This document shows, piece after piece, positions 18,035 through 35,465 of a DNA stretch of 64,000 nucleotides. The stretch is from Vannielia litorea (lineage in GTDB: Bacteria; Pseudomonadota; Alphaproteobacteria; Rhodobacterales; Rhodobacteraceae), in assembly GCF_900142295.1 (NCBI RefSeq), contig NZ_FSRL01000001.1:2046001-2110000 (forward strand), read 5' to 3'. Numbering within the stretch: position 1 is the first letter of the stretch; each line of letters opens with the position of its first letter. The notes under the pieces are model-generated. The model saw nothing but the letters and a program-made list of their open reading frames with translations. It made no database searches and had not been told where the DNA came from. The position numbers and the translations under genes were made by a program.

Positions 18035-20088
<2,054 letters not shown>

Positions 20089-21142
20089 GTCGTGAACCTT
20101 TCGGGGCTGGGAACAGGGGTAATGGAGGGGCGCGTTGCGGCCCCTGGTACGAGCAGGTCCACCCAGCTGGCGAGCACCTGCGAAAAGCGGAACTCCGGGC
20201 GCACCCGGATCTCCGAAGGGCGCCTGGCGGCATCTCGCCACCCGGCCACGGCCCGGCGCAGCGCATCCGGGTCGGAGCTGTCGATGCACTGCGCCGCAGT
20301 ACTCGCCACCTCGTCGTTTGCGCCAAGACCGCGCTGCAGCACGGCAGGGCAGCCGACGGCATTGGCTTCGGCGATGACGAGGCCGAAGGTTTCGGCGAAC
20401 TGGCCCTGCGGGTAGAACAGGCAAGCTGCGCGTCGCATCCAGCCGATCAGCTCCGGCTGTCGCAAACGTCCCAGCGGCAGCACGCGGGCCGGCATCCGAC
20501 CGACCGGCCAGGCAAGGTATCCCGGATCGGCAATCGCCAGGCGCAACCTCGGCCACTCCGCCTGCAACATCTCGAACCGCTCGAGCACCTGCCCGAGACC
20601 CTTGTGCGGCGAGCTGGCGAAGAGCAGCAGATCCGGGTCGCGGGGCGTGTCGTCGGGCGCGAGCGCGTCGTCGATGGGGTTGCAGACATGGCCGATGGCC
20701 GGCGCCGGCCCTCCGCCGACAAAACGCCTCAGCCACTCGGCATGGCTGCGGGAGACACAGAGCACCTCGATGCCGGCCGCAGCCAGGTCGGGGGCGAGCG
20801 CGCGGTTGTGGCGCCCCGGAAAGACGTGCTGCCAGACGATGACACGGGACGCCGGGTGCAACCTCGCCAGCTTCAGGGCGACCTTCCAGGAGTTTACCAC
20901 GACGATGGTGCCGGGCGCTTCCGGAAAGGGCCTCTTCAGGTCGAGCCCTGCATATCCGACCCCGCTCCACCAGTCGGCACGATCGGGCCGCATCCTTTGG
21001 CGAACCATGATCTGGAGCCGCGAGGACAGACCCTCGCAAACACGCACGAGCGTCGCCTCGGTGCCGCCCAAGCCCTCCAGCTGGCCCGGCGCGCCGCTGT
21101 ATCCTCTCGGAGCCAGCGGATCGACGAATGTGATGGCGCGGC

Positions 21143-22060
21143 TCACGCCACGCGCTCCGCGATCGCGCCGCCCCGTAGCTCGCCCAGCGCGGCGGGGTCG
21201 CAGAGCCCGGGATTGGTGCAGCTGCTCAGCCGGACCTGCGACAGGTCGATCGGGCACGGCTCGACCTCGCGGGTCTCGAACCACCGGCCCACCGCGTCCC
21301 AGACCCGGAGCCGGTCGGCCTTGCGCCGCGGGCTGTCGTAGTCGGTCGCCCCCTGCTGGGTCAGGCTGTCGGGAGTTTCGATCTTGGTCAGCAGCAGCTC
21401 CGGGATGACCCAGAGCACCTCGCCCGCCATGATGAGCCGGTTGCGGAACTCCCTGTCCTCCTCGATGCAGTCCGAAAAGCCGCCGAGGCGATCGAAGACC
21501 GAGCGGTGAAAGAGGCCGGAATTCACATGGGTCCAGTCGCCCGGCACCCCGGCGGCCATCTGCAGGTTGGGAAAGAAGTCGTCCACCAGCGAGAGCGTGC
21601 GGCGGATCTCGACCCGCTCGCCGTCCGGCAGGATCAGCTCGTGGTGGGTGAACACCCCGCCAACCTGGATGCGGGTGTCGGGCTCGCGGCCTGCAAGCCG
21701 CCAGTTCAGGCAGGGATGCGCCCCGATGTTCTCGTTGCCGATCACCCGCGCCTGACGCAGCACCTTGTCGCGATGCGGGATGTCGTCGGAGTCGTGAAAG
21801 GTCACGGCATCGCTCGTCGACAGCGCGATGCCCACGTTCTTGGCCTGCGCCGTCCCCACGTTGCGGGCAAGGCTCACGCCGACAAAGCGGGGGTGGTCGG
21901 CGTAGCCGCGCAGCACCTCGCCGGTGGCATCTGTCGAGCCGTCGTCGACGACCAGCACCGTGGTTGCGGGGTGCGACTGCCCCAGTGCGGCGTCGATTGC
22001 CTGTGGCAGGATGGAGGCTCGGTTGAACGTGGGAATGACGATGGTGACGCTGGGCAACAT
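21143..22060 (-). CDS. Family 2 glycosyltransferase
   Basis: A 305-aa GT2 enzyme. It has [28 protein letters not shown] as the nucleotide-binding motif, [12 protein letters not shown] as the DxD metal site, and [15 protein letters not shown] as the ED catalytic motif. Soluble, with no membrane helix. It lies 9 bp after the membrane glycosyltransferase gene and overlaps the next by 4 bp. The donor sugar is unknown; the DDSD motif supports a retained metal-dependent activity. Confidence 0.86.
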
Positions 22061-22069
22061 GACGATCTC

Positions 22070-23524
22070 CTAGACTTGGGCTTGAACGAGGGACGCGCGA
22101 TAGACCGAGAGCCGGGTGCAGGTCGCCCGCGCGAGGGGGTAGGGCAGGATGAGCAGCACCGCACCCAGCAGTCCGGACAGCGGCATGCCGGGAACCGCCA
22201 GCAGCGCCACACCGGCCAGCGCGAGGGCGGGCAGCACCGCGCCGGGCCGATCGGTCGCGCTGCCGACATCCTTGGATGTCCGGCAAAAGGCACCAGCCCG
22301 GCCAAGCAGGGCGTCCACGGTGCCCGCGGCGGAGGGCAAAAGCAGGGCGATGCGGGACGAGAGGGCCGCCCACACGGTGCCGAGCCCGGGCCTGCCGTTG
22401 GCCAGCATCGCCGTCAGGAGCGGCAGGGCGGCAGTGGCGAAGACCAGGGCCAGGCCAAGCCCGGAGGCCGACGCCAGCCAGCCGGCGGGGCGGTCGTCCG
22501 GAGTGGCCGCCAACCGCAATCCGCCGCCGATGAGGCCGGCCGCGAACGGCAGCGCGAGGCTGGCCCAGGCCGTCAGTTGCGCGACCACATGCACTGCCGC
22601 GCGAAGCGGAAGGCCCGACAGCCCCCGGCGAATGGTGTGCAGGTTGCCGGAGGCCCAGCGATAGCGTTGCAGCGTGAGGCCGGCCAGGTCGAGCGGCAGC
22701 AGACCCCGCCCGACGACCCGGTCGATGTATCGGCCCCGGTATCCCTGTTGCCGGAGCCGCAGGCCCAGCTCGGCATCCTCGGTGATGGTCCGGTCGCTCC
22801 AGCCGCCGATGGCTTCCAGGGGGCCGCGGGCAATCACGCTGAGCGTGCCCGTGAGGAGCATGGCATCGGCGGTTTCGGCCCGACGGGCATGGCGCAGAAA
22901 GTAATCCGCCAGCTCCAGCGAAATGCCAGCCGCCTCGCCCGAGTCGCTGCGATAGGCTTGCGGGAACTGGATGAACGCAGCGCCGCAGCGGCGGATCTCC
23001 CCGGCGGCAACCGCCAGGAAATCGGGCGCCACCTCGTAGTCGGCATCCACGACCACGATATGAGTGGCGCGCGGATCGGTGCGCGCCAGCGCGATATTCA
23101 GCGCCCCGGCCTTCGCACCCTTTACGCCCTCTTCGTGATAGAAGCGAAACTCGGGGCCGAGCTCCCGGCACAGCGCCTCGACCGGCTGCCACAGGGCAGG
23201 ATTGCGGGTGTTGTTGTCCAGGACGATCACCTCGAAGGCCGGAGCATCCACTTGGCGCGACAGCGCCAGGACCGTGCGCATGACCAGGTCCGCGGGCTCC
23301 TCGTGCGCGGCGACATGAACGGAGAACCGCACAGGACCTTCATGTGCCGAGCGGTCGCAAGTCTGGGCCCCCTGCGGGCTTCTCGTCCCGGCCATCAGGT
23401 GCAACGCGGCCAGAGCCGCCTGCGCCACCAGCGCCATTCCGACGACCACCAGTGCAACGACTGGCAGGATCAGTCCAAGACCGATCAGAGCGAGGAATAC
23501 ACCTCGGCTATCGAGCCTGAGCAT
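22070..23524 (-). CDS. Membrane-embedded GT2 (cellulose synthase-like) glycosyltransferase
   Basis: A 484-aa processive-type glycosyltransferase. N-terminal hydrophobic helices are followed by a GT2 domain with VIVLDNNT, VVDADYEV (D,D motif), GWSDRTITEDAELGLRL (TED) and LQRYRWASGN, the QxxRW motif of cellulose/hyaluronan synthase relatives. Several C-terminal transmembrane helices follow. It probably both polymerises and exports a glycan or builds a lipid-linked sugar. ATG 23524 has GGGAGGAAA upstream. It is the first gene of the operon, with an EcfG-like promoter 60-80 bp upstream. Confidence 0.87.
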   Translation of the reverse strand: MLRLDSRGVFLALIGLGLILPVVALVVVGMALVAQAALAALHLMAGTRSPQGAQTCDRSAHEGPVRFSVHVAAHEEPADLVMRTVLALSRQVDAPAFEVIVLDNNTRNPALWQPVEALCRELGPEFRFYHEEGVKGAKAGALNIALARTDPRATHIVVVDADYEVAPDFLAVAAGEIRRCGAAFIQFPQAYRSDSGEAAGISLELADYFLRHARRAETADAMLLTGTLSVIARGPLEAIGGWSDRTITEDAELGLRLRQQGYRGRYIDRVVGRGLLPLDLAGLTLQRYRWASGNLHTIRRGLSGLPLRAAVHVVAQLTAWASLALPFAAGLIGGGLRLAATPDDRPAGWLASASGLGLALVFATAALPLLTAMLANGRPGLGTVWAALSSRIALLLPSAAGTVDALLGRAGAFCRTSKDVGSATDRPGAVLPALALAGVALLAVPGMPLSGLLGAVLLILPYPLARATCTRLSVYRASLVQAQV

Positions 23525-23582
23525 CGATTTCCTCCCGCGTGAATTTTCGATTGTTGCCGGGCAAGCGGCATAGTCCGGGCTA

Positions 23583-23607
23583 AACCGCGCGCCGAAGCGG
23601 CAGTTCC
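23583..23607 (-). promoter_or_regulatory. EcfG-like promoter for the glycosyltransferase-catalase operon
   Basis: On the minus strand GGAAC (23607-23603) and GGTT (23586-23583) are 16 bases apart. One base differs from the CGTT -10 consensus. The position is about 60 bp upstream of the first glycosyltransferase ATG. Confidence 0.5.
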
Positions 23608-23840
23608 CACAACATTTGTTATCCGACATGCGCTGAGGCCCCGCGGCGGCCTGATGACCCGCATCGGCACCGCAGCGCTGGTCACCAACGGTGCCGGATT
23701 ATTTCGAATTAAAATCAGTGACTTGCACGCCGGCCGAACGAACCGCCAGCCGGGTTTCTTGCCTCTGCCGCCCCGCGCATCCGCTGCAGCAGACTGCCCG
23801 GCGAACTCCCGGTGGGGAACGCCCGGAACCTTTCCCGGTC

Positions 23841-23866
23841 GGAACCTTCACCCGGGTTCACGCGTC
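23841..23866 (+). promoter_or_regulatory. EcfG-like promoter for the membrane-stress operon
   Basis: GGAAC at 23841-23845 and CGTC at 23863-23866 are separated by 17 bases; the -10 has one mismatch (CGTC for CGTT). It lies about 28 bp upstream of the 22-residue peptide gene. Confidence 0.45.
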
Positions 23867-23894
23867 AGTGAGACAACCAACCGGAGGAACACCG

Positions 23895-23963
23895 ATGCAC
23901 ACGATCATTTACGCCGTAGGACTGCTGGTCATCGTTGTCGCCGTTCTGAACTTCGTCGCCTGA
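23895..23963 (+). CDS. 22-residue single-pass membrane peptide
   Basis: ATG 23895 has a strong GGAGG (23883-23887, 7 bases away) and encodes MHTIIYAVGLLVIVVAVLNFVA, 22 residues, nearly all hydrophobic (given here once in full only because it is the whole product; the core is a single membrane helix). Similar tiny helices beginning M-x-T-I-I-Y-x-V-G-L are common next to stress genes in alphaproteobacteria, from memory. Function unknown. It leads the operon of envelope/holin-like proteins and lies directly behind the stress promoter candidate, which argues that it is a real gene. Confidence 0.7.
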   Translation: MHTIIYAVGLLVIVVAVLNFVA

Positions 23964-23986
23964 GCCGAATGGAGAGGACCCAGAAG

Positions 23987-24532
23987 ATGACCAACACACC
24001 CGAACAATCCCGAGACAGCACGCAAACCGCGAAGGACACGGTCAAGGACCTGCGCGACGAGACCTTGTCCACCGTGCAGGACCTGAAGGAGAAGGCCATG
24101 GCGGAGGCCGGGCAGCGTGCCGAGGCCGGCAAGGCCACCGTGGCCGACGAGATCTCCGGCGTGGGCAATGCCCTGCGCCGTGCCGCCGACGAGCTGCACA
24201 AGGGCTCGCCGCAGGAGCGGACCTTCGGCCGGATGGCCACCGCGCTGGCCGACCTTTCCGACAAGGTGCGCGACAAGGACCTTGGCGAAGTCGCCGGTGA
24301 CCTGTCGACCTTCGCGCGCAACAACCCGCTGGCCTTCCTGGGCGGTGCGGCGCTGCTTGGCTTCGCCGGCACCCGCCTCGCGCGGGCCTCGCAGCGGGAT
24401 GCCGCTCCGGCGGGCCCCGCAGTCGACCTCGGCGATCCCTGGCATGACGACGAGGACGATGAGGCCCTCGACGCCGCGATCCGCCAGCAGCCCTCCCCCT
24501 ACCGTGCCCCGGCAACCGGAGAAACATCATGA
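23987..24532 (+). CDS. Amphipathic-helix membrane stress protein
   Basis: A 181-aa protein. Its charged, Lys/Glu/Ala-rich N-terminal half (residues 1-80) is predicted to form long amphipathic helices like DUF883/YtxH-type proteins. A hydrophobic segment follows (PLAFLGGAALLGFAGTRLA, about 110-130), then an acidic tail. Homologues are sometimes called nutrient-deprivation-induced proteins, from memory. It may bind or remodel the inner membrane under stress. ATG 23987 has GGAG/GAGGA just upstream, and the stop overlaps the next ATG. Confidence 0.7.
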   Translation: MTNTPEQSRDSTQTAKDTVKDLRDETLSTVQDLKEKAMAEAGQRAEAGKATVADEISGVGNALRRAADELHKGSPQERTFGRMATALADLSDKVRDKDLGEVAGDLSTFARNNPLAFLGGAALLGFAGTRLARASQRDAAPAGPAVDLGDPWHDDEDDEALDAAIRQQPSPYRAPATGETS

Positions 24533-24936
24533 GCTCTACCGATCCCAACGCCCCCGAAAGCACCGGCTCCCTGATCGGCGAGGCACTCAAGCATGTCTCC
24601 TCGCTGGTCCGCAACGAGGTGGACCTCGCCCGCGCCGAGCTGGACCAGAACCTGCGCCGCGCCGTCACCGCGGTGGGCCTGCTGGTCGCCGCCGTCGTGC
24701 TGGCGCTCACCGCGCTCAACGTGCTGTCGGCGGCCGTGGTCGCCGGGCTGACCGAAGCCGGGATCGAGCCCGGCTGGTCCGCGCTCATCGTAGGCGTCGC
24801 GCTCGGCGTCGTCGCCGCGATCCTCGTCGCCAAGGGCACCAGCGACCTCAAGCTTTCGAGCCTCGCGCCCACCCGCACTGCTGAAAATCTCAAGCGCGAT
24901 GCCCGCGCTCTCAAGGGAGACCGGACCGATGTCTGA
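24529..24936 (+). CDS. Phage holin-like (Phage_holin_3_6) membrane protein
   Basis: A 135-aa protein with an N-terminal amphipathic region (LIGEALKHVSSLVRNEVDLARAEL) and two central hydrophobic helices (VGLLVAAVVLALTALNVLSA and IVGVALGVVAAILVAKG). The layout fits the actinobacteriophage-holin-type family widespread in non-phage loci. No lytic enzyme is nearby, so a lysis role is unlikely; it belongs with its envelope-stress partners. It starts inside the preceding stop codon (ATGA) and overlaps the DUF3618 gene by 8 bp. Confidence 0.75.
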   Translation: MSSTDPNAPESTGSLIGEALKHVSSLVRNEVDLARAELDQNLRRAVTAVGLLVAAVVLALTALNVLSAAVVAGLTEAGIEPGWSALIVGVALGVVAAILVAKGTSDLKLSSLAPTRTAENLKRDARALKGDRTDV

Positions 24937-26176
24937 CACCAGAACCCCCAATGAAATCGAGCGCGATATCGAGCGCGAGCGGGCCCGCCTCGGGCAGACC
25001 GTGGATGCCCTGCAAGACCGCTTTTCGCCCGAGCGCATCCTGCGCGACGTGGGCCGTGGCTTCTCGGAGCACGGCGGCGACATCGGCACCGCGATCACCC
25101 AGTCGGTCAAGCGCAATCCGGTCGCCCTGGCACTGACCGGCATCGGCCTCGCCTGGCTGATGAGCGGCAAGTCGTGGGATGAAACCCGCGACGGCGTCAG
25201 GGACGGCGTGCGCGCCGCGCGCGACCGCATGCCCGACACCCCCTGGAAAGGTCGCAACTCGGGCGAGGCCGCTCGGGCCTATGCCGCGCCGGATGCCAGT
25301 GACCCCGACGGCATGCCCGCCACCCCCGCCGGGCGCGCCCGCCCTGCCCCCACCGACTCCGTCGGCATGGATCATCCCCTCGAGGACGACTGGCTCTGGG
25401 CGGAGGACGACGACTACTGGGACGACGAGACCGATGACGACGCCGCCACCAACGCCGGACCGGGGATCGGCACACGCGTGGGCGACATTGCGTCGTCGGC
25501 GGGAGAGGCCGTGAGCGGCGCAGGCAGTTCCGTGGCAGGCGCCGCGAAGTCGGCCGCCTCCGGGATCGGAGCGGGTGTCTCCTCTGCAGCCGGCGGCCTT
25601 GCCAGCGGCGCCGCGTCGGCCCGCGATGCCGCGGCCGCGGCGGGCCGGTCGACGGCCGAGCGTGCGCGTCGCATCCGCAAACGCCTCGCCATGGGCACCG
25701 AGAACTTCACCGAGGAGGCCCGCGAACGGGTGATTTCCGCCCGCTGGGCCGCGCTCAAGGCTCAAAAGGCGGTGCGGCGACGTGCCCGGAAAGGGGTCGA
25801 CGCAGCCTCCGACTTCTACGAGCAGAACCCGCTCGTTGTGGGCGGGCTCGCGCTGGCCGCCGGGGCAATCCTCGCCGGGGCGCTCCCTCGCACCCGCCAG
25901 GAAGACCGCGCCTTCGGGGCCTATTCGGACGAAGCCTTCGACAGGGCCGAACGCATCTTCCATGCCGAACGGCGCAAGGCGACCCGGGTGGCCGAGCGTG
26001 CGCTGGACACCGCGAAGGAGATTGCCGACGAGAAGCGCGAGCAGATCGACGCCTCGGCGCCCGGTTCGAAATCTGCCGCCGAGCACCTGGCCGATCAGGT
26101 CCGCGAGGGTGCTGAGCGCGTCGTGAGCGCCGCAACCGACGAGGCCGACCGGCAGAAGCTCGGCAAGCCCGGATGA
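24929..26176 (+). CDS. DUF3618 domain protein
   Basis: A 415-aa protein with an N-terminal DUF3618 motif (TPNEIERDIERERARLGQTV and the following DALQDRFSPERIL). A short hydrophobic stretch follows near residue 70, then an acidic middle (about residues 145-175), Ala/Ser/Gly-rich repeats (180-240), and a second hydrophobic helix (LVVGGLALAAGAILAGAL, about 300). ATG 24929 has AAGGGAG (24913-24919). Function is unknown. The domain recurs beside holin-like and YihY proteins, and the low-complexity middle suggests an envelope spacer. Confidence 0.75.
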   Translation: MSDTRTPNEIERDIERERARLGQTVDALQDRFSPERILRDVGRGFSEHGGDIGTAITQSVKRNPVALALTGIGLAWLMSGKSWDETRDGVRDGVRAARDRMPDTPWKGRNSGEAARAYAAPDASDPDGMPATPAGRARPAPTDSVGMDHPLEDDWLWAEDDDYWDDETDDDAATNAGPGIGTRVGDIASSAGEAVSGAGSSVAGAAKSAASGIGAGVSSAAGGLASGAASARDAAAAAGRSTAERARRIRKRLAMGTENFTEEARERVISARWAALKAQKAVRRRARKGVDAASDFYEQNPLVVGGLALAAGAILAGALPRTRQEDRAFGAYSDEAFDRAERIFHAERRKATRVAERALDTAKEIADEKREQIDASAPGSKSAAEHLADQVREGAERVVSAATDEADRQKLGKPG

Positions 26177-27120
26177 CCGAGCCTGCCGACACCGGCGAGT
26201 TCGCCGAACGTCCCCGCCACATTCCCGCTCGCGGATGGTTGACTATCGGCAAGCGGGTCTGGGCGGAGATGGGCACCGACCACCTCAGCCTGATCGCAGC
26301 CGGAGTGGCATTTTACGGGCTGCTCGCCCTGTTCCCGGCCATCACCGCGCTCATGGCGGTGGCCGGGCTGCTCTTCGAGGCGGACGACGTGATCAGCCGG
26401 ATAGAGACCATCTCCGCCATCGTGCCCGAGGCCGCGGCGGAGATCATCATCGGCCAGGCCACCGCGGTCACCGGCAGCGAGGAAGGCGGGCTGGGGCTGG
26501 CGGCGCTGGTCGGCTTCGGGCTGGCCATCTGGTCGGCCTCCAAGGGCGTCGGCAGCCTGATCGAAGGGATCAACGTCGCCTACGACGAGGAGGAGACCCG
26601 CGGCTTCGTGGCCCTCACCGTCACCCGCCTGGGGCTCACGCTGTTTCTTGTCGTGGGCATGATCGCCGGGCTCTCGGCCACGATCATCCTGCCCTCGCTG
26701 CTGCAGATCCTCACCCTCGGGCCGACCACCGAGGTGCTCATCGGCCTGGTGCGCTGGGCGGTCCTGCTGCTGATGACGGCGCTGGGCCTGAGCGCACTCT
26801 ACCGGTTCGCCCCCAGCCGACCGGCGGCCAAATGGCGCTGGCTCAGCCCGGGGGCCCTTCTGGCAACGGTGCTCTGGGTCGTGGCCTCCGCCGGATTTGC
26901 TGTCTACGTGCAGAACTTCGGCAGCTACCAGGAGACCTTCGGCGCTCTCGCCGGGGCCATCATCCTGCTGATGTGGCTCTGGATCTCGGCGCTGCTGGTC
27001 CTGCTCGGGGCCGAGTTGAACGCCGAGACCGAAGCGCAGACGCGGGTCGACACGACCGTGGGCCAGCCCATGCCGATGGGCGCCCGCGGCGCGGTGAAGG
27101 CCGACACCCTGGCCAGTTGA
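26173..27120 (+). CDS. YihY/BrkB-type inner-membrane protein
   Basis: A 315-aa membrane protein with about six helices. The family hallmark is SLIAAGVAFYGLLALFPAITAL, split here as SLIAAGVAFYG and LLALFPAIT. Further conserved pieces are SASKGVGSLIEGINVAYDEEE and LMWLWISALLVLLGAELNAE near the C-terminus. Members were once mis-annotated as ribonuclease BN; their activity is unknown. It is the last member of the membrane-stress set, joined to the DUF3618 gene by ATGA. Ku-LigD follows after about 100 bp with its own promoter candidate. Confidence 0.85.
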   Translation: MTEPADTGEFAERPRHIPARGWLTIGKRVWAEMGTDHLSLIAAGVAFYGLLALFPAITALMAVAGLLFEADDVISRIETISAIVPEAAAEIIIGQATAVTGSEEGGLGLAALVGFGLAIWSASKGVGSLIEGINVAYDEEETRGFVALTVTRLGLTLFLVVGMIAGLSATIILPSLLQILTLGPTTEVLIGLVRWAVLLLMTALGLSALYRFAPSRPAAKWRWLSPGALLATVLWVVASAGFAVYVQNFGSYQETFGALAGAIILLMWLWISALLVLLGAELNAETEAQTRVDTTVGQPMPMGARGAVKADTLAS

Positions 27121-27144
27121 TCCGTCGGAGGGGCGGACCGAACC

Positions 27145-27170
27145 GGAAACTTTGCACCCCGCTCCGCGTT
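27145..27170 (+). promoter_or_regulatory. EcfG-like promoter for Ku-LigD
   Basis: GGAAA at 27145-27149 (one mismatch to GGAAC), a 17-base spacer, and an exact CGTT at 27167-27170. It lies 52 bp upstream of the ku ATG. Stress-sigma control of Ku/LigD has been described in other alphaproteobacteria. Confidence 0.5.
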
Positions 27171-27222
27171 GGTCCCGCGTTGACCGCAGGCGGCGGCGGA
27201 ACAGATCGAAAGGGCACATCAC

Positions 27223-28059
27223 ATGGCGTCACGCGCGATATGGAAGGGGCAGCTCAGGCTTTCGCTGGTGGCGATCCCGGTAGAGATCCACTCGGCCCGC
27301 AACTCCGGCAGCAAGGTGTCCTTCAGGCAGATCCACAAGCCCTCCGGCAAGCCGGTGCGCTACCAGAAGGTGGTGCAGGGGGTGGGACCGGTGGAGACCT
27401 CCGACATCATGAAGGGCTACGAGACCGACAATGGCGACTACATCCTGCTGGAGCCCGACGAGATCGACGCGATCAAGCTCGAGACGAAAAAGACGCTGGA
27501 GCTGAGCCAGTTCGTCGAGATCACCGAGATCGCCCCGATCTGGTTCGACCGGCCCTACTACGTGGTCCCCTCCGACGAGCTGGCCGAAGACGCCTACCGC
27601 GTGGTGCGCGACGCCCTGCGCCAAACCAGGAAGGCCGGGCTCGGCCAGCTCACCATGCGTGGCAAGGAATACCTCTGCGCAATCCGGCCCTGCGGCGACG
27701 GGTTGCTGATGGAGACCCTGCATTACGAGCAGGACATCCGCGATGCCGACCCGCTGTTCTCCGGCATCGAGGACGACGCCCCCGACGAGGAGCTGCTCGA
27801 GGTGGCCACCCAGCTGATCGAAAAGAAGACAGCCCCCTTCGACGCCTCCGCCTTCGAAGATCACTACGCCGCCGCGCTGCAAGACCTGATCTCCCGCAAG
27901 ATGCGCTCGCGCAAGACCCCGCGCGCGAAGGCGGAAGACAAGGAAGACCGCCCCGAGGGTGAAAACGTGGTGGACCTCTTGGATGCGCTGAAGAAGAGCC
28001 TGAAGCAGAGCAAGGACACGAGCAAGAGCACGGGCGGGCGCAAGAAGAGGGCGTCATGA
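27223..28059 (+). CDS. ku: Ku-type DNA end-binding protein
   Basis: A 278-aa bacterial Ku that encircles broken DNA ends and recruits LigD for non-homologous end joining. The N-terminal SRAIWKGQLRLSLVAIPVEI is diagnostic. The core beta-barrel continues through VGPVETSDIMKGYE and LHYEQDIRDADPL. The C-terminal ~40 residues are lysine-rich, a tail that in other bacteria helps DNA threading and LigD contact. ATG 27223 is preceded by AAAGGG. Its stop overlaps the ligD start (ATGA), giving a fixed protein ratio. Confidence 0.95.
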   Translation: MASRAIWKGQLRLSLVAIPVEIHSARNSGSKVSFRQIHKPSGKPVRYQKVVQGVGPVETSDIMKGYETDNGDYILLEPDEIDAIKLETKKTLELSQFVEITEIAPIWFDRPYYVVPSDELAEDAYRVVRDALRQTRKAGLGQLTMRGKEYLCAIRPCGDGLLMETLHYEQDIRDADPLFSGIEDDAPDEELLEVATQLIEKKTAPFDASAFEDHYAAALQDLISRKMRSRKTPRAKAEDKEDRPEGENVVDLLDALKKSLKQSKDTSKSTGGRKKRAS

Positions 28060-30488
28060 GCCAGCTTCGGGAATATGCGGCCAAACGGGATTTCTCGGTC
28101 ACCCCCGAGCCGCGCGCCGAGCTGGTGGAGGCCGGAGGCCGCCAGCCCGGCTTCGTCGTGCAGAAGCACGATGCCAGCCGCCTGCACTTCGACTTCCGCC
28201 TCGAATGGGACGGCGTGCTGCTGTCCTGGGCCGTTACCAGGGGCCCCTCCGCCGACCCGGGCCAGAAGCGGCTTGCAGTGCGCACCGAGGACCATCCGGT
28301 CAGCTACGGCAGCTTCGAGGGGACCATCCCCCAAAAGGAGTACGGCGGCGGCACAGTCATGCTCTGGGACACCGGCTGGTGGGAGCCGATGCACCCCGTG
28401 GCCGAGGGGCTGAAACAGGGCAAGCTGCACTTCCGCCTCCACGGCGCGCGCATGAAGGGGGGCTGGGCCCTGGTGCGGATGCGCGGCAAGAAGCGCGAAA
28501 AGCGCGAGAACTGGCTGCTCATCAAGGAGCGCGACGATTTCGCCGGGCGCAGCGCGGATGCGCTGGTCAATCGGCACCGCACCAGCGTCACCACCGGCCG
28601 TGCGATGCGCGATATCGCCGCCGACCGCAGCGCCCTCCGCCCCGCCGACCATGCAAAGCCCCTGCCCCGCTTCCGCAAGCTTCAACTGGCCACGCTGGCA
28701 GATGCCCCGCCCGAGGGTGACGGCTGGCAGCACGAGGCCAAGCTCGACGGCTACCGCTGCCTGATCGCCGTGGGCAAGGGCGGCGTGCGGCTCTACACCC
28801 GCAACGGCAAGGACTGGTCCGACCGCTTCGGCGCCCTGCGCGACCCGGTCGATGCCCTGCCCTGCGAGGCCGCGCTGATCGACGGCGAGGTGGTCGCGGG
28901 CGGCGCGGGCGATGACTTCTCGGCGCTTCAGGCGGCGCTGAAGTCCGGCGACCCGCTCATCTTCTATGCCTTCGACTGCCTGGCCCTCGATGGAGCCGAC
29001 CTGACCGGCAAGCCGCTGACCGAAAGGCGCAAGGCGCTCGAGGGTCTGTTTGCCTCCCTGCCTCCGCGCGGCCCGCTCCGGCTGAGCCCCGTGCTGGAGG
29101 GCAACGGCGCCGCGGCGCTCGCCACGATCTGCGAGGCGGGCGGCGAAGGGATCGTCTCCAAACGGCTGGATGCGCCCTATCGCGGCGGGCGCGGGCGCGC
29201 CTGGATCAAGTCCAAGTGCATCCGTCGCGCCGAGTTCGTCATCGGTGGCTGGTCGCCCTCCGACAGGCGGGGGCGCTCCTTTGCCTCATTGCTGCTCGGC
29301 AGCCGCGAGGGCGGGCGGTTCGTCTACCGTGGACGGGTCGGCAGCGGCTTCGACGCGGACGCCCTCGACGAGATCGGCGCCGCCCTGCAACCCCTCGCCC
29401 GAAAGACCCCGCCCTTCGACGGCGCGCTGCCCTCCGAGGCCGATGACGCGCGGTGGGTCACCCCCAATCTGGTGGCCGAGGTCGAGTACACCGAATTCAC
29501 CAGCGAGGGCCGCATCCGCCACGGCGTGTTCAAGGGCATGCGCGAAGACAAGGAGGCGAGCGAGGTGAGCGCGAAGCAAGAGGCCGAGACCGATGGCGCG
29601 GAAGAACAGGTGGGCAGGGTGCGCATTTCCAGCGCCGACCGGGTCGTCTACCCCGAGGCCGGGCTGAGCAAGGCTGATGTCGCCCGCCACTACGCCCGCG
29701 TGGCCGAGCGGATGCTGACCCACGCCGCGAACCGCCCGCTCTCGCTCCTGCGCTGCCCCTCCGGCCTCAAGGGCGACTGCTTCTTCCAGAAGCACGCGGG
29801 CAAGGGCTTTCCCTCCGCCGTCAGGTCGATGCCGATCGAGGAGAAGGACGGCGCCACCGAGGACTACATGTATGTCACCACCCCCGAGGGGCTGATCGGC
29901 GCGGCGCAGATGGGCACGCTGGAGTTTCACATCTGGGGTTCCGCCCGCGACCGGATCGAACGCCCCGACCGGATGGTCTTCGACCTCGACCCCGACGAGA
30001 GGCTCGGCTTCGACGCGGTGAAGGCCGCCGCCACCGAGGTGCGCGAGGGTCTGGGCGCCTGCGGGCTGCAAAGCGTGCCCATGATCACCGGCGGCAAGGG
30101 GGCGCACGTCATCGTGCCACTGCGCCGGGTGGCCGGGTGGGACACGGTAAAGTTCTTTGCCCGCACCTTCGCCCAGATCCTCGCAGAGAGGCACCCCGAC
30201 CGCTACACCGCCACCATGTCCAAGGCCAAGCGCAAGGGCCGGACCTTCATCGACTGGCTGCGCAACGAGCGCGGGTCCACGGCGATCGCGCCCTATTCGC
30301 TGCGTGCCCGCGAGAGCGCCGCCGTGGCGGTGCCGGTCACCTGGGACGAGCTGAACCGCCTGACCTCCGCCGACGCGTTCCACGCAGCCGACATGGAGGC
30401 CCGCCTCGCCGCCCCCTGCCCGCTGGAGAACGCCCCGCTCGGCAGCATCGGCGCCGCCGCGGTCGAAGCGCTCGAAGCCTGGGCCTGA
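28056..30488 (+). CDS. ligD: Multifunctional DNA ligase D
   Basis: An 810-aa NHEJ enzyme in the order phosphoesterase-ligase-polymerase. The 3'-phosphoesterase domain (about 1-165) has RLHFDFRLEWDG and GSFEGTIPQKEYGGG. The ATP-dependent ligase domain (about 205-510) has motif I KLDG with the adenylated Lys at residue 229, and the OB-fold ends with RIRHGVFKGMRED. The primase-polymerase domain (about 525-800) has the catalytic FDLDPD pair. All three centres look intact. This is the standard architecture of proteobacterial LigD. Confidence 0.95.
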   Translation: MSQLREYAAKRDFSVTPEPRAELVEAGGRQPGFVVQKHDASRLHFDFRLEWDGVLLSWAVTRGPSADPGQKRLAVRTEDHPVSYGSFEGTIPQKEYGGGTVMLWDTGWWEPMHPVAEGLKQGKLHFRLHGARMKGGWALVRMRGKKREKRENWLLIKERDDFAGRSADALVNRHRTSVTTGRAMRDIAADRSALRPADHAKPLPRFRKLQLATLADAPPEGDGWQHEAKLDGYRCLIAVGKGGVRLYTRNGKDWSDRFGALRDPVDALPCEAALIDGEVVAGGAGDDFSALQAALKSGDPLIFYAFDCLALDGADLTGKPLTERRKALEGLFASLPPRGPLRLSPVLEGNGAAALATICEAGGEGIVSKRLDAPYRGGRGRAWIKSKCIRRAEFVIGGWSPSDRRGRSFASLLLGSREGGRFVYRGRVGSGFDADALDEIGAALQPLARKTPPFDGALPSEADDARWVTPNLVAEVEYTEFTSEGRIRHGVFKGMREDKEASEVSAKQEAETDGAEEQVGRVRISSADRVVYPEAGLSKADVARHYARVAERMLTHAANRPLSLLRCPSGLKGDCFFQKHAGKGFPSAVRSMPIEEKDGATEDYMYVTTPEGLIGAAQMGTLEFHIWGSARDRIERPDRMVFDLDPDERLGFDAVKAAATEVREGLGACGLQSVPMITGGKGAHVIVPLRRVAGWDTVKFFARTFAQILAERHPDRYTATMSKAKRKGRTFIDWLRNERGSTAIAPYSLRARESAAVAVPVTWDELNRLTSADAFHAADMEARLAAPCPLENAPLGSIGAAAVEALEAWA

Positions 30489-30555
30489 GCCCTTGCCTGC
30501 CGCTCGGTCAGGCCGGCCAAACCCCCGGTCCACGGAACCTCCCGCGCCCGCCGCG

Positions 30556-30913: not shown

Positions 30914-30934
30914 TGGTGGCGGAGGAGGTGGGAT
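30914..30934 (+). repeat. Left attachment-site repeat (attL)
   Basis: A 21-bp copy identical to 35373-35393. Read on the minus strand it contains the CCA end, the acceptor-stem 3' strand and part of the T arm of tRNA-Ser(TGA). It is the displaced original 3' end left behind by integration. Confidence 0.9.
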
Positions 30935-30994
30935 GCTCCGCTCACGTGACGTAAGCCAATGAAACCATTGTATTCCCGTAACTTAGGACTGCAT

Positions 30995-31017
30995 ACGTGT
31001 GTGGGAAACGTGTGTGG
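30995..31017 (+). repeat. Paired ACGTGTGTGG repeats at the integrase end
   Basis: Two copies of ACGTGTGTGG start at 30995 and 31008, 13 bp apart. The second merges with the integrase ribosome site (TGTGGAG). A matching pair occurs at the other end of the island (35291-35312) in the same orientation. They are candidates for arm-type binding sites of the integrase or its directionality factor, and binding could also repress int. Confidence 0.55.
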
Positions 31018-31026
31018 AGAAACTGA

Positions 31027-32334
31027 TTGCCCAAGTACCTGCAGCAGCGTCGTCGTCGCTGGTATGCCGTCCTCGACATCCCCAAGAGCCTTCGGCCTCG
31101 GTACGGCGGCAAGCCTCGCTTCGTCCAGAGCTTGGAGACAGATAGCCTCAGTGCCGCTGAGCGACGTGCCCCTCTCCTTGTCGCCAAGTGGAAGGCTGAG
31201 CTTGAGGCTGTCCGGTCAGGCAATGCTCAGCCGCTCCAAGACCTTCGAGACGTCGCTGCCGAGTGGAACGCCGAGCTGGATGGAGCGGCTAGCGATGAGC
31301 AGCGGCTAGCGCTGGAGATGATCCTACAGGACAAGGCAGAAGAACTCGAAGGGACACGACCGGGTGCCGGGAGGCCGTTCTTCAAGCTCGCTACAGGGCA
31401 GTGGACCGAGACGGCGAGCTTGGTTGAAGACTGGCTCGCCACACTCGACAACGAAGCCAAGACCATCGACATGAAGCGCTCTGACCTCGCGCGGCTCAGC
31501 ACACGCTTCAGGGTCCTCCAGAAGATCGACCGGAAGGCCGTTCTGCAGTGGGTGGATCACCTCCACCGCGCTGAGAGCCTTAAGCTAGCCACTGTGCGGC
31601 GCATCATCTCGGCCTGTCGAGGCTACTGGGCGCATCTGCAACGCACCCACGTCGTTGCCGATGACAAGGAGCCGTTCCGGGACGTTGTGCCAAGGGCGGC
31701 CAGGAAGTCGAAGAGCGAGGTCGCAGACAAGCGCAGACCATTTACTGACAGCGACGTGGTGCAACTTCTCCATGCCTCGCTCTCGGACAATGACCGAAGC
31801 CTTGCATCGCTGATCTGGATGGGCATGTGGACAGGGTGCCGGATTGAGGAGCTTTGCGCCTTGAAGGCCAGCGAGGTGGCATCCGACCGGTTCATGATTG
31901 AGGACGCCAAGTCGGAGGCCGGATGGAGGGAGGTCCCGATCCACAGCAGCCTAAATGCTTCCCTGCAGTCCCTGTGCGCATCCTCCAAGGACGGCTTCGT
32001 CCTAGGCGGCCTCACGAGCAACAAATACGGTGACAGGTCGAACGCCGTAGGTAAGCGCTTCGGTCGCCTGAAGACCCGGCTTGGCTATGATCATCGCCTC
32101 GTCTTCCACTCGTTGAGGAAGACCGTCACCACCCAGCTTGATGCGGCAGGCGTCCCTGAAGCCGTGAGCGCTCGCATCCTCGGCCACGACATCCCGACCA
32201 TGACGTACGGTCTTTACTCCGGCGGCGCTCCATTCGAGACGAAGAGGGACGCACTCGAGGTCCTGAAGTATCCCCTGAGGGGTGACGAAGAGGACGCCCT
32301 GAGAGCGACGGAGAGGGCCCTCAGAGCATCATGA
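31027..32334 (+). CDS. Tyrosine recombinase/integrase
   Basis: A 435-aa phage-type integrase that should cut and join DNA at the tRNA-Ser att sites. Catalytic set: Arg in WTGCRIEEL (about residue 272), His-x-x-Arg in FHSLRKT (about 360), His in LGHDIPT, and the Tyr nucleophile in MTYGLYSGG (about 396). The N-terminal MPKYLQQRRRRWYAVLDIPK is the DNA-arm-binding type seen in tRNA-targeting integrases. The start is TTG 31027 with GGAG (31016-31019) upstream. All catalytic residues are present, so it looks active. Its stop overlaps the serine recombinase stop by 6 bp (convergent). Confidence 0.93.
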   Translation: MPKYLQQRRRRWYAVLDIPKSLRPRYGGKPRFVQSLETDSLSAAERRAPLLVAKWKAELEAVRSGNAQPLQDLRDVAAEWNAELDGAASDEQRLALEMILQDKAEELEGTRPGAGRPFFKLATGQWTETASLVEDWLATLDNEAKTIDMKRSDLARLSTRFRVLQKIDRKAVLQWVDHLHRAESLKLATVRRIISACRGYWAHLQRTHVVADDKEPFRDVVPRAARKSKSEVADKRRPFTDSDVVQLLHASLSDNDRSLASLIWMGMWTGCRIEELCALKASEVASDRFMIEDAKSEAGWREVPIHSSLNASLQSLCASSKDGFVLGGLTSNKYGDRSNAVGKRFGRLKTRLGYDHRLVFHSLRKTVTTQLDAAGVPEAVSARILGHDIPTMTYGLYSGGAPFETKRDALEVLKYPLRGDEEDALRATERALRAS

Positions 32335-32991
32335 GGCGTCCAGCCGCTCCAGTACCCGTTTCACCTGTGAGGCTTGCCACTGACCGCCTCTGGCAGTCTT
32401 TACGCCCACCCGGTTAAGCTCCTCCGCAATGGCGCGGAGAGACAGGCCGTTTTGACGGAGTGGTACGACTACTCCCTCGACCTTCTCCGCACGGCGCTGG
32501 GCGTTAGCCTTGACCGCCTCGTTGCGCTTCATCGTGGCGTCACGCATCCCGCCAAGCACCACGCCTCTACGCTTGGCCTCTGCCAAGGCAGCTTTCGTGC
32601 GCTTGCTGATGAAGTCCCTCTCCTGCTCGGCGAGGGCAGCATAGATGTGCAGCTGGAACTTGTCGGCGTAGGGCATCTGCGCCACCCGAAGCGAGAGCTT
32701 GCTATCTTCCATCAAGGCCGAGATGAACGACACACGGCGGGACAGCCTGTCCAGCTTCGCGATGAGCAACTCCGCTCCTGTCCTCTTCGCCAGCTCGATG
32801 GCCTTCGCCAGCTCTGGTCGCTCGTCGTCGGTACCACTGAGGACATCCGTGAACTCCCCCAAGACCTCGAACGGGACATCTGAGTAGGTCTCAAGGAACA
32901 GTTGAATGTCGCGCTCCTGCGCATCGAGGCCGAGCCCACTCCGGCCCTGCTCCGACGTGCTGACCCTCTTGTACGTCACGTAGTGCTTCAT
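32329..32991 (-). CDS. Serine recombinase (resolvase/invertase type)
   Basis: A 220-aa small serine recombinase. The nucleophile Ser11 is in YKRVSTSEQGRSGLGLDAQ. The catalytic-domain Arg residues are in KLDRLSRRVSFISALM. After the E-helix (LAEQERDFISKRTKAAL) a C-terminal helix-turn-helix ends the protein (LSLRAIAEELNRVGVKT). ATG 32991 has AAGGGAG upstream. It could resolve dimers of the excised circle, act as an invertase, or promote mobility. Having both recombinase classes in one tiny island is unusual. Its start faces the long non-coding region. Confidence 0.9.
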   Translation of the reverse strand: MKHYVTYKRVSTSEQGRSGLGLDAQERDIQLFLETYSDVPFEVLGEFTDVLSGTDDERPELAKAIELAKRTGAELLIAKLDRLSRRVSFISALMEDSKLSLRVAQMPYADKFQLHIYAALAEQERDFISKRTKAALAEAKRRGVVLGGMRDATMKRNEAVKANAQRRAEKVEGVVVPLRQNGLSLRAIAEELNRVGVKTARGGQWQASQVKRVLERLDAS

Positions 32992-33066
32992 CTCGTCGTC
33001 TCCCTTGCCTGTCGAAAACGACAAGTAGAGCGAACCGTTGCAAACGTCAACGTAGGTTGTGACCGT

Positions 33067-33082
33067 TACAAAGCTACAAAGC
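33067..33082 (+). repeat. Tandem 8-bp repeat TACAAAGC x2
   Basis: Two adjacent copies of TACAAAGC lie 76 bp upstream of the serine recombinase ATG, on the side expected for its promoter. They may be an operator or part of a recombination (res) site; sequence alone does not decide. Confidence 0.4.
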
Positions 33083-33085
33083 GAG

Positions 33086-33151
33086 CCCCCCCCCCCCCGG
33101 GCATGGCATTCGTTCAGGACACACCCTCGGCCCATACTTGGACGGGGGGGG
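33086..33151. repeat. C13 tract and G8 tract
   Basis: Thirteen consecutive C (33086-33098) are followed 45 bp later by eight consecutive G (33144-33151). The runs can pair with each other in single-stranded DNA or RNA, and either could change length by slippage. Long homopolymers are also a place for sequencing error. Confidence 0.7.
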
Positions 33152-33476
33152 ATACAGCGTCACCGCCTACCATTGATACCGGCTCAGATTTTCGCGGTGC
33201 TATAGCTCGCTGGGTGAACGACAAAGGCCCCACAGCAAGCGCTGGTGGAGCCATGGGAACTACAGTGAGGTGAGGGGTTGGATAGGTGAAGGGCGGGGGG
33301 AGGGATAGCCACAGGTCCCCACAGTCTCCCTATAGTTACCCTACAGGTCAGGGGTCTTGAGCTGTATCCCCAGATGCCCCCCTACCCCCCACGATTTCGG
33401 CGTGATCTGGATAGGAGTGGCTCGGTTCAACAGCAGGCGATCAGGTGATCTTGAGCTTGCAGTTGCCCCAGAGAGG

Positions 33477-33508
33477 CCCCCACAGAAGTGTTTCTTCTGC
33501 AATGGGGG
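33477..33508 (+). other. Hairpin upstream of the RT gene
   Basis: CAGAAG (33483-33488) and CTTCTG (33494-33499) pair around a 5-base loop TGTTT. CCCCC (33477-33481) can pair with GGGGG (33504-33508) beyond a small internal loop. It has no T-tract downstream on the plus strand, so it is not a standard terminator; it may be part of a longer structured RNA. Confidence 0.45.
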
Positions 33509-33546
33509 AACTCAATCGGAGTGCAGCTCCTCAGCCGAACGCGAGC

Positions 33547-33575
33547 TTGACGTAGAGGTCGGGCAAGTCTAGCCA
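33547..33575 (+). promoter_or_regulatory. Possible sigma70-type promoter for the structured RNA/RT
   Basis: TTGACG (33547-33552) is a good -35 element. At 17 bases spacing the -10 position reads TAGCCA, a poor match. Transcription would start near 33582, just before the 11-bp inverted repeat. Weak on its own; its value is the placement. Confidence 0.3.
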
Positions 33576-33718
33576 CTTTAGTCAGTGGCGTAGTAGCCGA
33601 GGCGGTGGAGCAAAGTACCGGGCGGCCAAGTCGCTGATGGCGTTGTTGCTGGAAACGGTAACCACGACGCTGGGAGGTGAGCCTCCTAGTGGAACCCCTG
33701 ACTATCAGCTCCACCGCC
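33572..33718 (+). ncRNA. Candidate structured non-coding RNA of the RT locus
   Basis: A compact nest of inverted repeats ends 20 bp before the RT ATG. A 6-bp hairpin GCCACT/AGTGGC spans 33572-33589 (6-base loop). A perfect 11-bp inverted repeat GGCGGTGGAGC (33601-33611) and GCTCCACCGCC (33708-33718) closes a 96-base interior. Inside are GCGTTGT/ACGACGC (33640-33646 with 33664-33670, one G-U pair) and the tight hairpin GGAGG-TGAG-CCTCC (33673-33686). The layout, structured RNA closed by a terminal stem immediately upstream of an RT, parallels retron and DRT2/DRT9 loci where the RNA is template or cofactor. That it is transcribed, and used by the RT, is inference. Confidence 0.55.
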
Positions 33719-33738
33719 GATAAACGAGCTGAGGCAGT

Positions 33739-35289
33739 ATGCAGAACGCCTTGAAGGCTGAGATCAAACGGCTTGCCTCTAGGGCTTTCAAGAGGGCCGC
33801 TAAGCAAGCCAGAGTTGAGGCTTCCCACCGGCGGAAGTTCGAGAAGAGAACTGGCGTTGCTGCGGGGCTGCCAACTCCCTCCGTCACAAGCCATCCCCAC
33901 AGACACTTCGATCCACGTTACTGCGCTCGAAACGCCAACTTCCTGGCCAAGACGCTTTGGCACAAGGTCCTGACCTACTCCTACGACCCACTCTGCGCGG
34001 CAGAGCACCTTCTGCCGAAGCCAGATGGCTCGACGAGACCGGTCATGGCTTTCTCCATACCGGATGCCGCGCTGGCTAATGTGGTGCTACGGCGGACCAG
34101 AGACCGCAACCTGAAACGCCTGTCCCCAGCATCGTTTGCCTACCACCCCGACAAGAATGTGTTCGATGCCGTGCTGTCACTGCGCGAGTTTGCGCACGAC
34201 GGACGCCTCTTCGCTGTTCAGATCGACTTCGAGAAGTACTTCGACTTGATACCAACTCGCTACATCGAGGCGAAACTCGACGATGCGAATGAAATCAGCC
34301 TTACTCCCCACGAAAAGCACATCTTCAACCGCTTCCTGAGACATCGGTCTCGCCTCGCAAGTGACTACGCGACGGGTCCAGAGAAGCGCCGACACAAGGG
34401 AACCCCGCAGGGATCTTCCGTCTCCCTACTGCTCGCCAACCTCGCCAACGACGACCTAGACACCGCGCTGTCTACGGAAGCTGGGAAGTTCGTGAGGTTC
34501 GCTGACGATGTGGTAGCCCTCTGCTCGACCTATGAACAAGCCCAACAACTCGAGGCGTGCTTCCACAGACACTGTGACGCAAGCGGACTGAAGATCAACG
34601 AAGCAAAGTCACCGGGGATCGCAATCATAGCCAACACCCAGCAAGAGATGCGGACTTACGGGCACTTCGACTACCTTGGCTACAGGTTTTCGACAAGTGG
34701 CCTCTCGGTTACGAACAAAGCAGCACGGCGCATCAAGTCCCGAGTGTCTAGGCTCACCCACATTTACCTGAACCAGTACCTCCTCGCCGGGTTCAACACA
34801 TCGCGCACCTCAGTGACTTCGCCTGTGTACGACTGGGACCTCCTTGGATTGATCTACGAGCTGCGAAACTCCTTGTATGGAGGGCTGAGCGAGGAGGAAC
34901 TCAGGAGTTTCGTCGAAGGCGGTCGTAGACTGACCAGCATGAAGGGCTTGATGGGCTTCTACTGCCTCATTGACGAGCCTGCGACCATGCGGGAAATCGA
35001 CGGGTGGATGCTCAGCACAGTTCGACGCGCGATGGCACACCGAAACAGACGGTTAGGGACGTTGCACGGAGTATCATGCCCGACGCCCAGTAACAGACAA
35101 CTCGCAACAGGCGAATGGCTGGATGTTCGTGCTTGGCGAGATGACGAGCCACCTCCCGACGCAAGGATGCCTAGCTTAGTCCGGGGCTGGCGAGCCGCAC
35201 GTAAGCACTACTTCACGTTTGGCCTCGAAGACGTCCAAGCGCCTGACTACAACCGGTACTCCGACATCGGGTCCCTCTTTGACTACTAA
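33739..35289 (+). CDS. Reverse transcriptase, UG/DRT-like (candidate anti-phage)
   Basis: A 516-aa RT with a full finger-palm core: RT2 AFSIPDAALANVVLRRT, RT3 FAVQIDFEKYFDLI (about residue 160), RT4 KGTPQGSSVSLLLANLA (about 220), RT5 FVRFADDVVAL with the catalytic Asp pair (about 255), RT6 GLKINEAKS and RT7 FDYLGYRFS. The SVSLLLAN form of RT4 and the helical C-terminal ~200 residues (KGLMGFYCLIDEP and IDGWMLSTVRRAM) recall the unknown-group (UG/DRT) RTs linked to phage defence, from memory. No maturase, endonuclease, protease or nitrilase domain is present, and retron VTG and NAxxH motifs are missing. ATG 33739 has GAGG at 33731-33734. It is the island's only cargo. Confidence 0.85.
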   Translation: MQNALKAEIKRLASRAFKRAAKQARVEASHRRKFEKRTGVAAGLPTPSVTSHPHRHFDPRYCARNANFLAKTLWHKVLTYSYDPLCAAEHLLPKPDGSTRPVMAFSIPDAALANVVLRRTRDRNLKRLSPASFAYHPDKNVFDAVLSLREFAHDGRLFAVQIDFEKYFDLIPTRYIEAKLDDANEISLTPHEKHIFNRFLRHRSRLASDYATGPEKRRHKGTPQGSSVSLLLANLANDDLDTALSTEAGKFVRFADDVVALCSTYEQAQQLEACFHRHCDASGLKINEAKSPGIAIIANTQQEMRTYGHFDYLGYRFSTSGLSVTNKAARRIKSRVSRLTHIYLNQYLLAGFNTSRTSVTSPVYDWDLLGLIYELRNSLYGGLSEEELRSFVEGGRRLTSMKGLMGFYCLIDEPATMREIDGWMLSTVRRAMAHRNRRLGTLHGVSCPTPSNRQLATGEWLDVRAWRDDEPPPDARMPSLVRGWRAARKHYFTFGLEDVQAPDYNRYSDIGSLFDY

Positions 35290-35290
35290 G

Positions 35291-35312
35291 CGTGTGTGGA
35301 GGGTGTGTGTGG
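35291..35312 (+). repeat. Paired GTGTGTGG repeats at the tRNA end
   Basis: CGTGTGTGG (35291-35299) and GTGTGTGG (35305-35312) sit right after the RT stop, about 60 bp from the right att repeat, in the same orientation as the pair at 30995-31017. A matching position at both ends fits integrase or excisionase arm sites. Confidence 0.55.
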
Positions 35313-35372
35313 AAGCGGCGCGGAGCAGCGCGAAATACACAACGATAACAGATAGATAGGTCATTTCTGCCT

Positions 35373-35393
35373 TGGTGGCGGAGGAGGTGGGAT
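35373..35393 (+). repeat. Right attachment-site repeat (attR)
   Basis: Identical over 21 bp to 30914-30934. It covers the 3' terminal 18 bases of the intact tRNA-Ser(TGA) gene plus 3 bases beyond the CCA. Confidence 0.9.
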
Positions 35394-35465
35394 TCGAACC
35401 CACGGTACGCTTTCACGCACGCCGGTTTTCAAGACCGGTGCATTCGACCACTCTGCCACTCCTCC
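35376..35465 (-). tRNA. tRNA-Ser(TGA)
   Basis: A 90-base class II tRNA on the minus strand. Acceptor stem GGAGGAG (35465-35459) pairs with CTCCTCC (35386-35380), then discriminator G and encoded CCA (35378-35376). The anticodon stem CCGGT/ACCGG surrounds loop CTTGAAA with anticodon TGA at 35431-35429, reading UCA. A long variable arm and GGTTCGAATCC T arm are present. Its 3' end is the integration target of the island. Confidence 0.96.

Follow-up and report, generated by a model that had tools for sequence, protein, structure and literature searches.

A minimal tRNA-Ser island of Vannielia litorea with a DRT9-family reverse transcriptase and an upstream RNA lacking a U4 tract in its presumed template loop

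What can an integrated island carry when, besides its recombinases, it holds a single reverse transcriptase (RT) locus, and what DNA would such an RT write? The question is raised by a ~4.5-kb segment (positions 30914..35393) bordering a tRNA-Ser(TGA) gene in a stretch of 64,000 nucleotides from the alphaproteobacterium Vannielia litorea (assembly GCF_900142295.1, contig NZ_FSRL01000001.1, positions 2,046,001 to 2,110,000), hereafter called the window. A preliminary description of the window had proposed that only the RT and its upstream DNA could be the payload. Both parts of this proposal held: the one cargo that can be recognised is an RT locus of the DRT9 family, whose anti-phage activity has been published, and a conserved non-coding RNA (ncRNA) lies within the upstream DNA. 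We consider it rather probable that the segment is a minimal island with a two-part DRT9-family defence system, made of the RT and an upstream scaffold/template ncRNA, whose protein-linked DNA product would be something other than poly-deoxyadenosine (poly-dA). A known family of defence RTs is here in a very small vehicle, and its template part departs from the published rule. The parts concerned are the following:

33547..33551, plus strand: TTGAC, putative -35-like element of the ncRNA promoter, its position conserved across loci
33584..33726, plus strand: structured ncRNA of the RT system (fold, covariation, covariance model)
33692..33707, plus strand: single-stranded loop GAACCCCUGACUAUCA, presumed template, with the core CCCU-K-ACU at 33696-33703 (alignment)
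33739..35289, plus strand: DRT9/UG28-family RT of 516 aa with an RVT_1 domain (family model, fold), FADD (D256, D257) and tail tyrosines Y504, Y508 and Y516

The window RT belongs to the DRT9/UG28 family, taken here as one although myRT divides UG28 into UG28 and UG28b (in the passages of PMC8934634 used here). The Drt9 model matched residues 1-507 with 516 bits (E 2.6e-155) against 102 bits for the next-best model, and the predicted structure (pLDDT, the predicted local distance difference test, 85.8) adopts the DRT9 fold along almost all of its length, as do SenDRT9 and E. coli DRT9 (UG28; PDB 9nlv, 9ioa, 9vma). Retron, group II intron, DRT2, DRT3a and DRT10 were tried as the RT family and scored far lower (79 bits with UG17, the group of DRT10; 62 and 59 bits with the best models of DRT3a and DRT2), and the NCBIfam matches included no Drt9 model, group_II_RT_mat reaching 118 bits, below its cut-off of 300. 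Like SenDRT9, the window RT ends in a tail with a conserved tyrosine; Y504 is invariant in its clade and Y516 nearly so, with a spacing that differs from the Sen-type NYDY tail. Identity with the SenDRT9 RT is only ~26%, and the clade has FADD (Y in place of F in L008 and L013) where Sen has YADD. Among the matches listed for the window RT are 119 relatives with 55-74% identity.

What had been described as non-coding DNA ends in a predicted ncRNA, conserved and structured, directly upstream of the RT and in the same direction. The upstream sequences of related loci share a block, ~140-160 nt in length, ahead of the RT, and the stretch 33584-33726 (fold z -4.8) forms stem-loop (SL) 1 (33587-33598), an outer stem (33601-33611/33708-33718), SL3 (33621-33635), SL4 (~33641-33667) and SL5 (33668-33691). 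In the consensus structure of 20 loci, 94.3% of the cells of its 27 pairs do pair, versus 80.4% in shuffled alignments, and 17 of these pairs show two-sided changes; none of 500 shuffles reached any of five observed measures, and slid controls paired 28-51% of cells. A covariance model built from the 20 sequences, that of the window among them, scored the window ncRNA at 125 bits (E 1.3e-33). Rfam, searched up to E 5, returned no family for it. The TTGAC stands ~36-41 nt 5' of SL1 in 19 of the 20 loci, compared with 228 of 18,600 random slots, and a scan of the promoter region for the full sigma-70 consensus gave no match. A motif search for more such RNAs in viral contigs returned 20 stretches, none resembling a true copy (best 22.7 bits, 8/20 at E<=0.01, versus 119.7-137.3 bits for four true ncRNAs), and a search with a second motif returned none.

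The 20 loci are not independent of one another and hold 13 distinct loop sequences. Dropped from the set were identical or nearly identical loci (L028-L030, L034, L037, L044, L045, L047, L053, L060-L063, L065), loci that had lost the loop (L011, L017, L046, L048), loci whose RT start lay off the stretch (L016, L018, L036, L050, L052, L054, L064, L066) and loci of another branch (L021/L040, L051, L056); the Sen-type L033/L041 were excluded because their contig begins within the RNA region. In L011 (7902-8000) and L017 (7904-8000), the same as L048 and L046 and derived from metagenome-assembled genomes DOLZORAL124 and DOLJORAL78, the ncRNA runs through SL5 and is followed by the RT from about codon 8-16, so that loop and RT start are missing through either a deletion or an assembly fault. 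L015 (Mesorhizobium) was kept despite its broken RT, which is split into two matches with one TGA and one TAG in the first; its ncRNA looks intact.

The template question turns on the loop that links SL5 to the closing stem. This loop is exactly 16 nt long in all 20 loci, with the consensus GANNCCCUKACUNUNN: CCCU is invariant, followed by G (11 loci) or U (9), an invariant ACU, then A, C or U, and a U in 19 of 20. By comparison, the SL3-SL5 part varies from 22 to 45 nt and the SL5 tip from 3 to 33 nt. Pairing of CCCUKACU with an upstream AGUACCGGG, which appears in the best fold of the window, found no support across the loci, with 72.5% of cells paired and two-sided changes absent; the invariance is not explained by pairing with this partner, the one candidate tested. 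A U4 tract is found in the loop of none of the 20 loci, whose longest loop U-run is 1 to 3; between 33584 and the first codon of the RT the window lacks UUU, and its loop lacks UU. In contrast, UUUU occupies the matching place in all five readable Sen-type loci (L038, L042=L043, L055, L057, L059). The Sen-type ncRNA likewise lies directly upstream of its RT and, as published, has stem-loops and an unpaired template loop, but our clade model matched none of five Sen-type loci, and a terminator hairpin between ncRNA and RT is absent from all 17 clade loci assessed whereas three of four Sen-type loci have one under the same strict rule.

Published work on DRT9 describes RT-ncRNA particles, tyrosine priming, phage-triggered DNA synthesis and abortive infection. 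A 2025 paper in Science is said to describe a poly(A)-rich complementary DNA (cDNA). In the passages drawn on here, SenDRT9 makes poly-dA templated by a U4 tract termed universally conserved, and the product must be templated since removal of one of the four Us abolishes defence and a change of U4 to A4 yields mainly poly-dT (Tang et al. 2025, PMC12483538). The same passages give a DRT9 covariance model covering 201 systems; ten systems were tried, and two are described as defending. The passages drawn on from other papers call U124-U127 highly conserved with Y496/Y498 as priming candidates (EMBO J, PMC12489045) and list DRT9 as poly-dA in a 2026 overview (PMC13213688). Among the open-licence papers searched, we found none on a DRT9 branch without poly-U.

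As the window loop has no U-run, its product should not be poly-dA. Nevertheless, several observations weigh against a loop-templated product of another kind. Three consecutive Us occur in 4 of the 13 distinct loops (L007, L009, L012, L013), so that some clade members may still make poly-dA. TKACT also precedes U4 in all five Sen-type RNAs, immediately in three and by a few bases in two; it may thus be structural, and what keeps CCCUKACU invariant could be RT binding instead of a template role. Fixed length is not peculiar to the loop, as a 9-nt and a 3-nt stretch of the ncRNA are also fixed and one more varies by 1 nt. The terminal Y516 is absent in L007 (protein identical to P0055) and L012. 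Finally, homology of the A-B-A' type within the loops does not exceed that of shuffles for most sequences, only L039 falling below 0.05, with L003-L005 at 0.07-0.10 and the others higher. The first two of these points, together with the almost full-length DRT9 fold of the RT, would suit a clade that makes poly-dA or A-rich DNA as SenDRT9 does, the RT itself picking deoxyadenosine triphosphate largely without guidance by the loop, and CCCUKACU acting only as a binding or positioning motif. We find this improbable, since the window ncRNA offers no U-run to copy and the SenDRT9 product itself answers to its template.

A product templated by the loop could have several registers: 4 nt (CU-KA-CU, in 20/20), 8 nt (GACUC..GACUC, in L003, L004, L005 and L039) or 2 nt (UNU, in 19/20). 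The simplest single guess, which is not established, would be a telomerase- or DRT10-like A-B-A' register, in which C7U8-K9A10-C11U12 gives a tetranucleotide repeat, (AGTC)n in the window and (AGTA)n in members with K = U. Both CU are invariant at a 4-nt spacing in 20/20, the sole variable base of the core falls within B, and the loop of L008, which has K = U unlike its tree neighbour L007, reads CUUACUUA, a perfect 4-nt repeat. DRT10 writes tandem repeats from an A-B-A' template located behind a stem-loop, with A and A' of 2 nt in two systems (in the passages of PMC12632851 used here); it shares with the window system a Class 2 UG RT, a loop after a stem-loop in its ncRNA and expected protein priming. 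However, the CU..CU invariance follows from conservation alone and is no independent test, A-B-A' homology stays within the range of shuffles in most loops, and the other two registers fit some members equally well. We regard this one specific repeat as an unlikely answer, on a level with poly-dA. The window system also differs from DRT10 in its loop, which is strongly conserved in the window's clade and poorly so in DRT10 (same passages), and in the absence of a SLATT gene from the island, as judged by a family scan of its open reading frames (ORFs) that passed over those that were shorter or overlapped others.

Less probable still is a synthesis that ignores the 16-nt loop, being untemplated or protein-directed like that of the Abi RTs or DRT3b. 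Other UG-family RTs do work so (passages of PMC12483538 and PMC13174585), but the ncRNA is strongly conserved, its loop has a fixed length between SL5 and the closing stem, which on our reading is where the RNAs of DRT9 and DRT10 have their template. Repetitive cDNA templated by an ncRNA is also reported, in the same passages, for DRT3a, from an ACACAC template (PMC13174585), and for DRT2 (Neo; PMC12483538); the models of both score low against the window RT. The least probable reading is that the pair has no part in defence and works for the island instead, or has no activity, since against its residence on mobile DNA that carries two recombinases, the loop losses in L011 and L017 and the stops in the L015 RT stand an intact window RT with FADD, a clear constraint on RNA and protein, and pairs found without close relatives of these two recombinases nearby, e.g., in L003 and in IMG/VR contigs.

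We propose instead, for the loop-templated product other than poly-dA, the following sequence of events. Phage infection would switch on the RT-ncRNA particle, and DNA synthesis would start on a tyrosine of the RT's own flexible tail, for which Y504 is the invariant candidate. The RT would then copy the 16-nt loop repeatedly by slipping back, yielding a long single-stranded DNA of repeated sequence, attached to the protein, which may shut down the infected cell. More tentatively, and with slightly more doubt than conviction, we suggest that a large deep branch of DRT9 has replaced poly-U by the invariant CCCUKACU and writes another repetitive antiviral DNA, possibly telomerase-like tandem repeats such as (AGTC)n. 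The named members of this branch are mostly Alphaproteobacteria, with Pectobacterium and Phytobacter represented by proteins only.

RTs of the window type travel on several kinds of mobile DNA. A tyrosine integrase lies upstream in L013, which sits beside a tRNA-Gly, and in L012; L003 stands among phage-like genes, as read from its ORFs, and four loci are in IMG/VR contigs. Two E. coli DRT9 copies likewise adjoin an integrase, at ssrA rather than at tRNA-Ser. A SLATT-linked DRT9-like branch (Thioclava L056, L040, L051) belongs to the same RT superfamily with ~34% identity and forms a separate clade (98/93). Its member L040 keeps CCCUGACU and a weak match to the clade model at the right place (14.8 bits), whereas a SLATT_5 gene was seen beside the RT in L056 only. 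L056 (5750-8131, on a Thioclava plasmid) represents a third DRT9-like branch, in which the SLATT_5 gene overlaps the end of the RT; the RNA of this locus may be closed by GCCAGUAAGC/GCUUACUGGC.

How did such a pair come to lie at this tRNA? The remaining features of the island are these:

30914..30934, no strand: attL-like (left attachment site), left copy of an exact 21-bp repeat
30996..31017, no strand: two copies of CGTGTGTGG, possible arm-type sites of the integrase (motif count versus shuffles)
31027..32334, plus strand: tyrosine integrase with DUF6538 and Phage_integrase domains (Pfam PF00589, E 1.2e-12; PF20172, E 1.1e-11)
32329..32991, minus strand: serine recombinase with a Resolvase domain (Pfam PF00239, E 1.2e-23), its ORF open to 33135
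35291..35299, no strand: third CGTGTGTGG, possible arm-type site (motif count versus shuffles)
35373..35393, no strand: attR-like (right attachment site), right copy of the exact repeat at the tRNA 3' end
35376..35465, minus strand: tRNA-Ser(TGA), integration target (ARAGORN; Rfam tRNA, 63.7 bits)

The preliminary description had reported a 21-bp duplication of the tRNA 3' end around a segment of lower GC, with genes for a tyrosine integrase, a serine recombinase and one RT as well as 747 bp of non-coding DNA; each of these elements was located. The repeat is exact and present in two copies, and a 20-mer of it with up to 3 mismatches has just these two sites in the window, versus a shuffle mean of 0.02. 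Given the limits of the tRNA, it takes in the final 18 nt of that gene and a neighbouring TGG, which reads CCA on the tRNA strand. The island has a GC of ~0.57-0.62 and the rest of the window mostly 0.64-0.74, with a few other dips (e.g., 0.58-0.60 at 1-3 kb). Direct repeats of a tRNA 3' end around a segment with an internal integrase beside an att site are the marks of a tRNA-integrated island, and the integrase starts ~90 bp from the left repeat. The motif CGTGTGTGG occurs in the window only at 30996, 31009 and 35291 (3 versus 0.46 expected; 1/100 shuffles as high), and its copies near both island ends are possible arm-type sites. In the host genome, the island DNA is found in a single copy, at this locus.

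Comparison with related genomes at tRNA-Ser(TGA), suggested along with the island, gave a partial answer. In six same-genus genomes (one of them, G001, 87% complete), the window RT is absent from all six, the sole match being an RT of 27% identity in G005, and the tRNA-Ser(TGA) is kept with the same right flank in all six, at 71-84% identity. A clean empty site was not found in them because their left flanks are rearranged: these flanks (1500 bp each, 484 bp in G001) do not match one another at E 1e-3, and match the window over one short stretch only. A chromosome rearrangement borders the island, since the left neighbourhood of the window (20000-30551) has a 95% identical counterpart in G005 ~2 Mb from its tRNA-Ser. 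Beside the tRNA end, G003 reads GGTGATAGTGGCGG where the left repeat of the window has GGTGATGGTGGCGG at the matching place, a likeness that may be a weak sign of the left repeat being the original tRNA border. In G002, an ORF on the left side of the tRNA (L069) was considered as an integrase and rejected, Pfam giving only HTH_17, below the cut-off. Directly left of the island, at 27223-30488 and within the block displaced in G005, lie Ku and LigD of bacterial non-homologous end joining.

Inside the island, the ORFs with a family match are the integrase, the serine recombinase and the RT. A serine recombinase thus coexists with a tyrosine integrase in one island; its start codon is probably at 32991, and the 747 bp run from there to the RT ATG at 33739. 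Within these 747 bp and outside the ncRNA lie a run of 13 C (33086-33098) and one of 8 G (33144-33151). No relative of the integrase was confirmed in viral contigs with the patterns used, and none was found in plasmids at E 1e-40, so that no family of sister islands emerged.

Altogether, if the proposal is right, the branch without poly-U would be a DRT9 machine to which nature has given another template. It would then serve to separate whether toxicity needs poly-dA specifically or any long protein-linked DNA and, as a second and distinct question, by what route a slip-and-copy template comes to support repeat addition of the telomerase kind. The V. litorea locus would provide for this a natural copy of ~1.7 kb, ncRNA and RT together within a 4.5-kb unit, that is easily cloned and tested.

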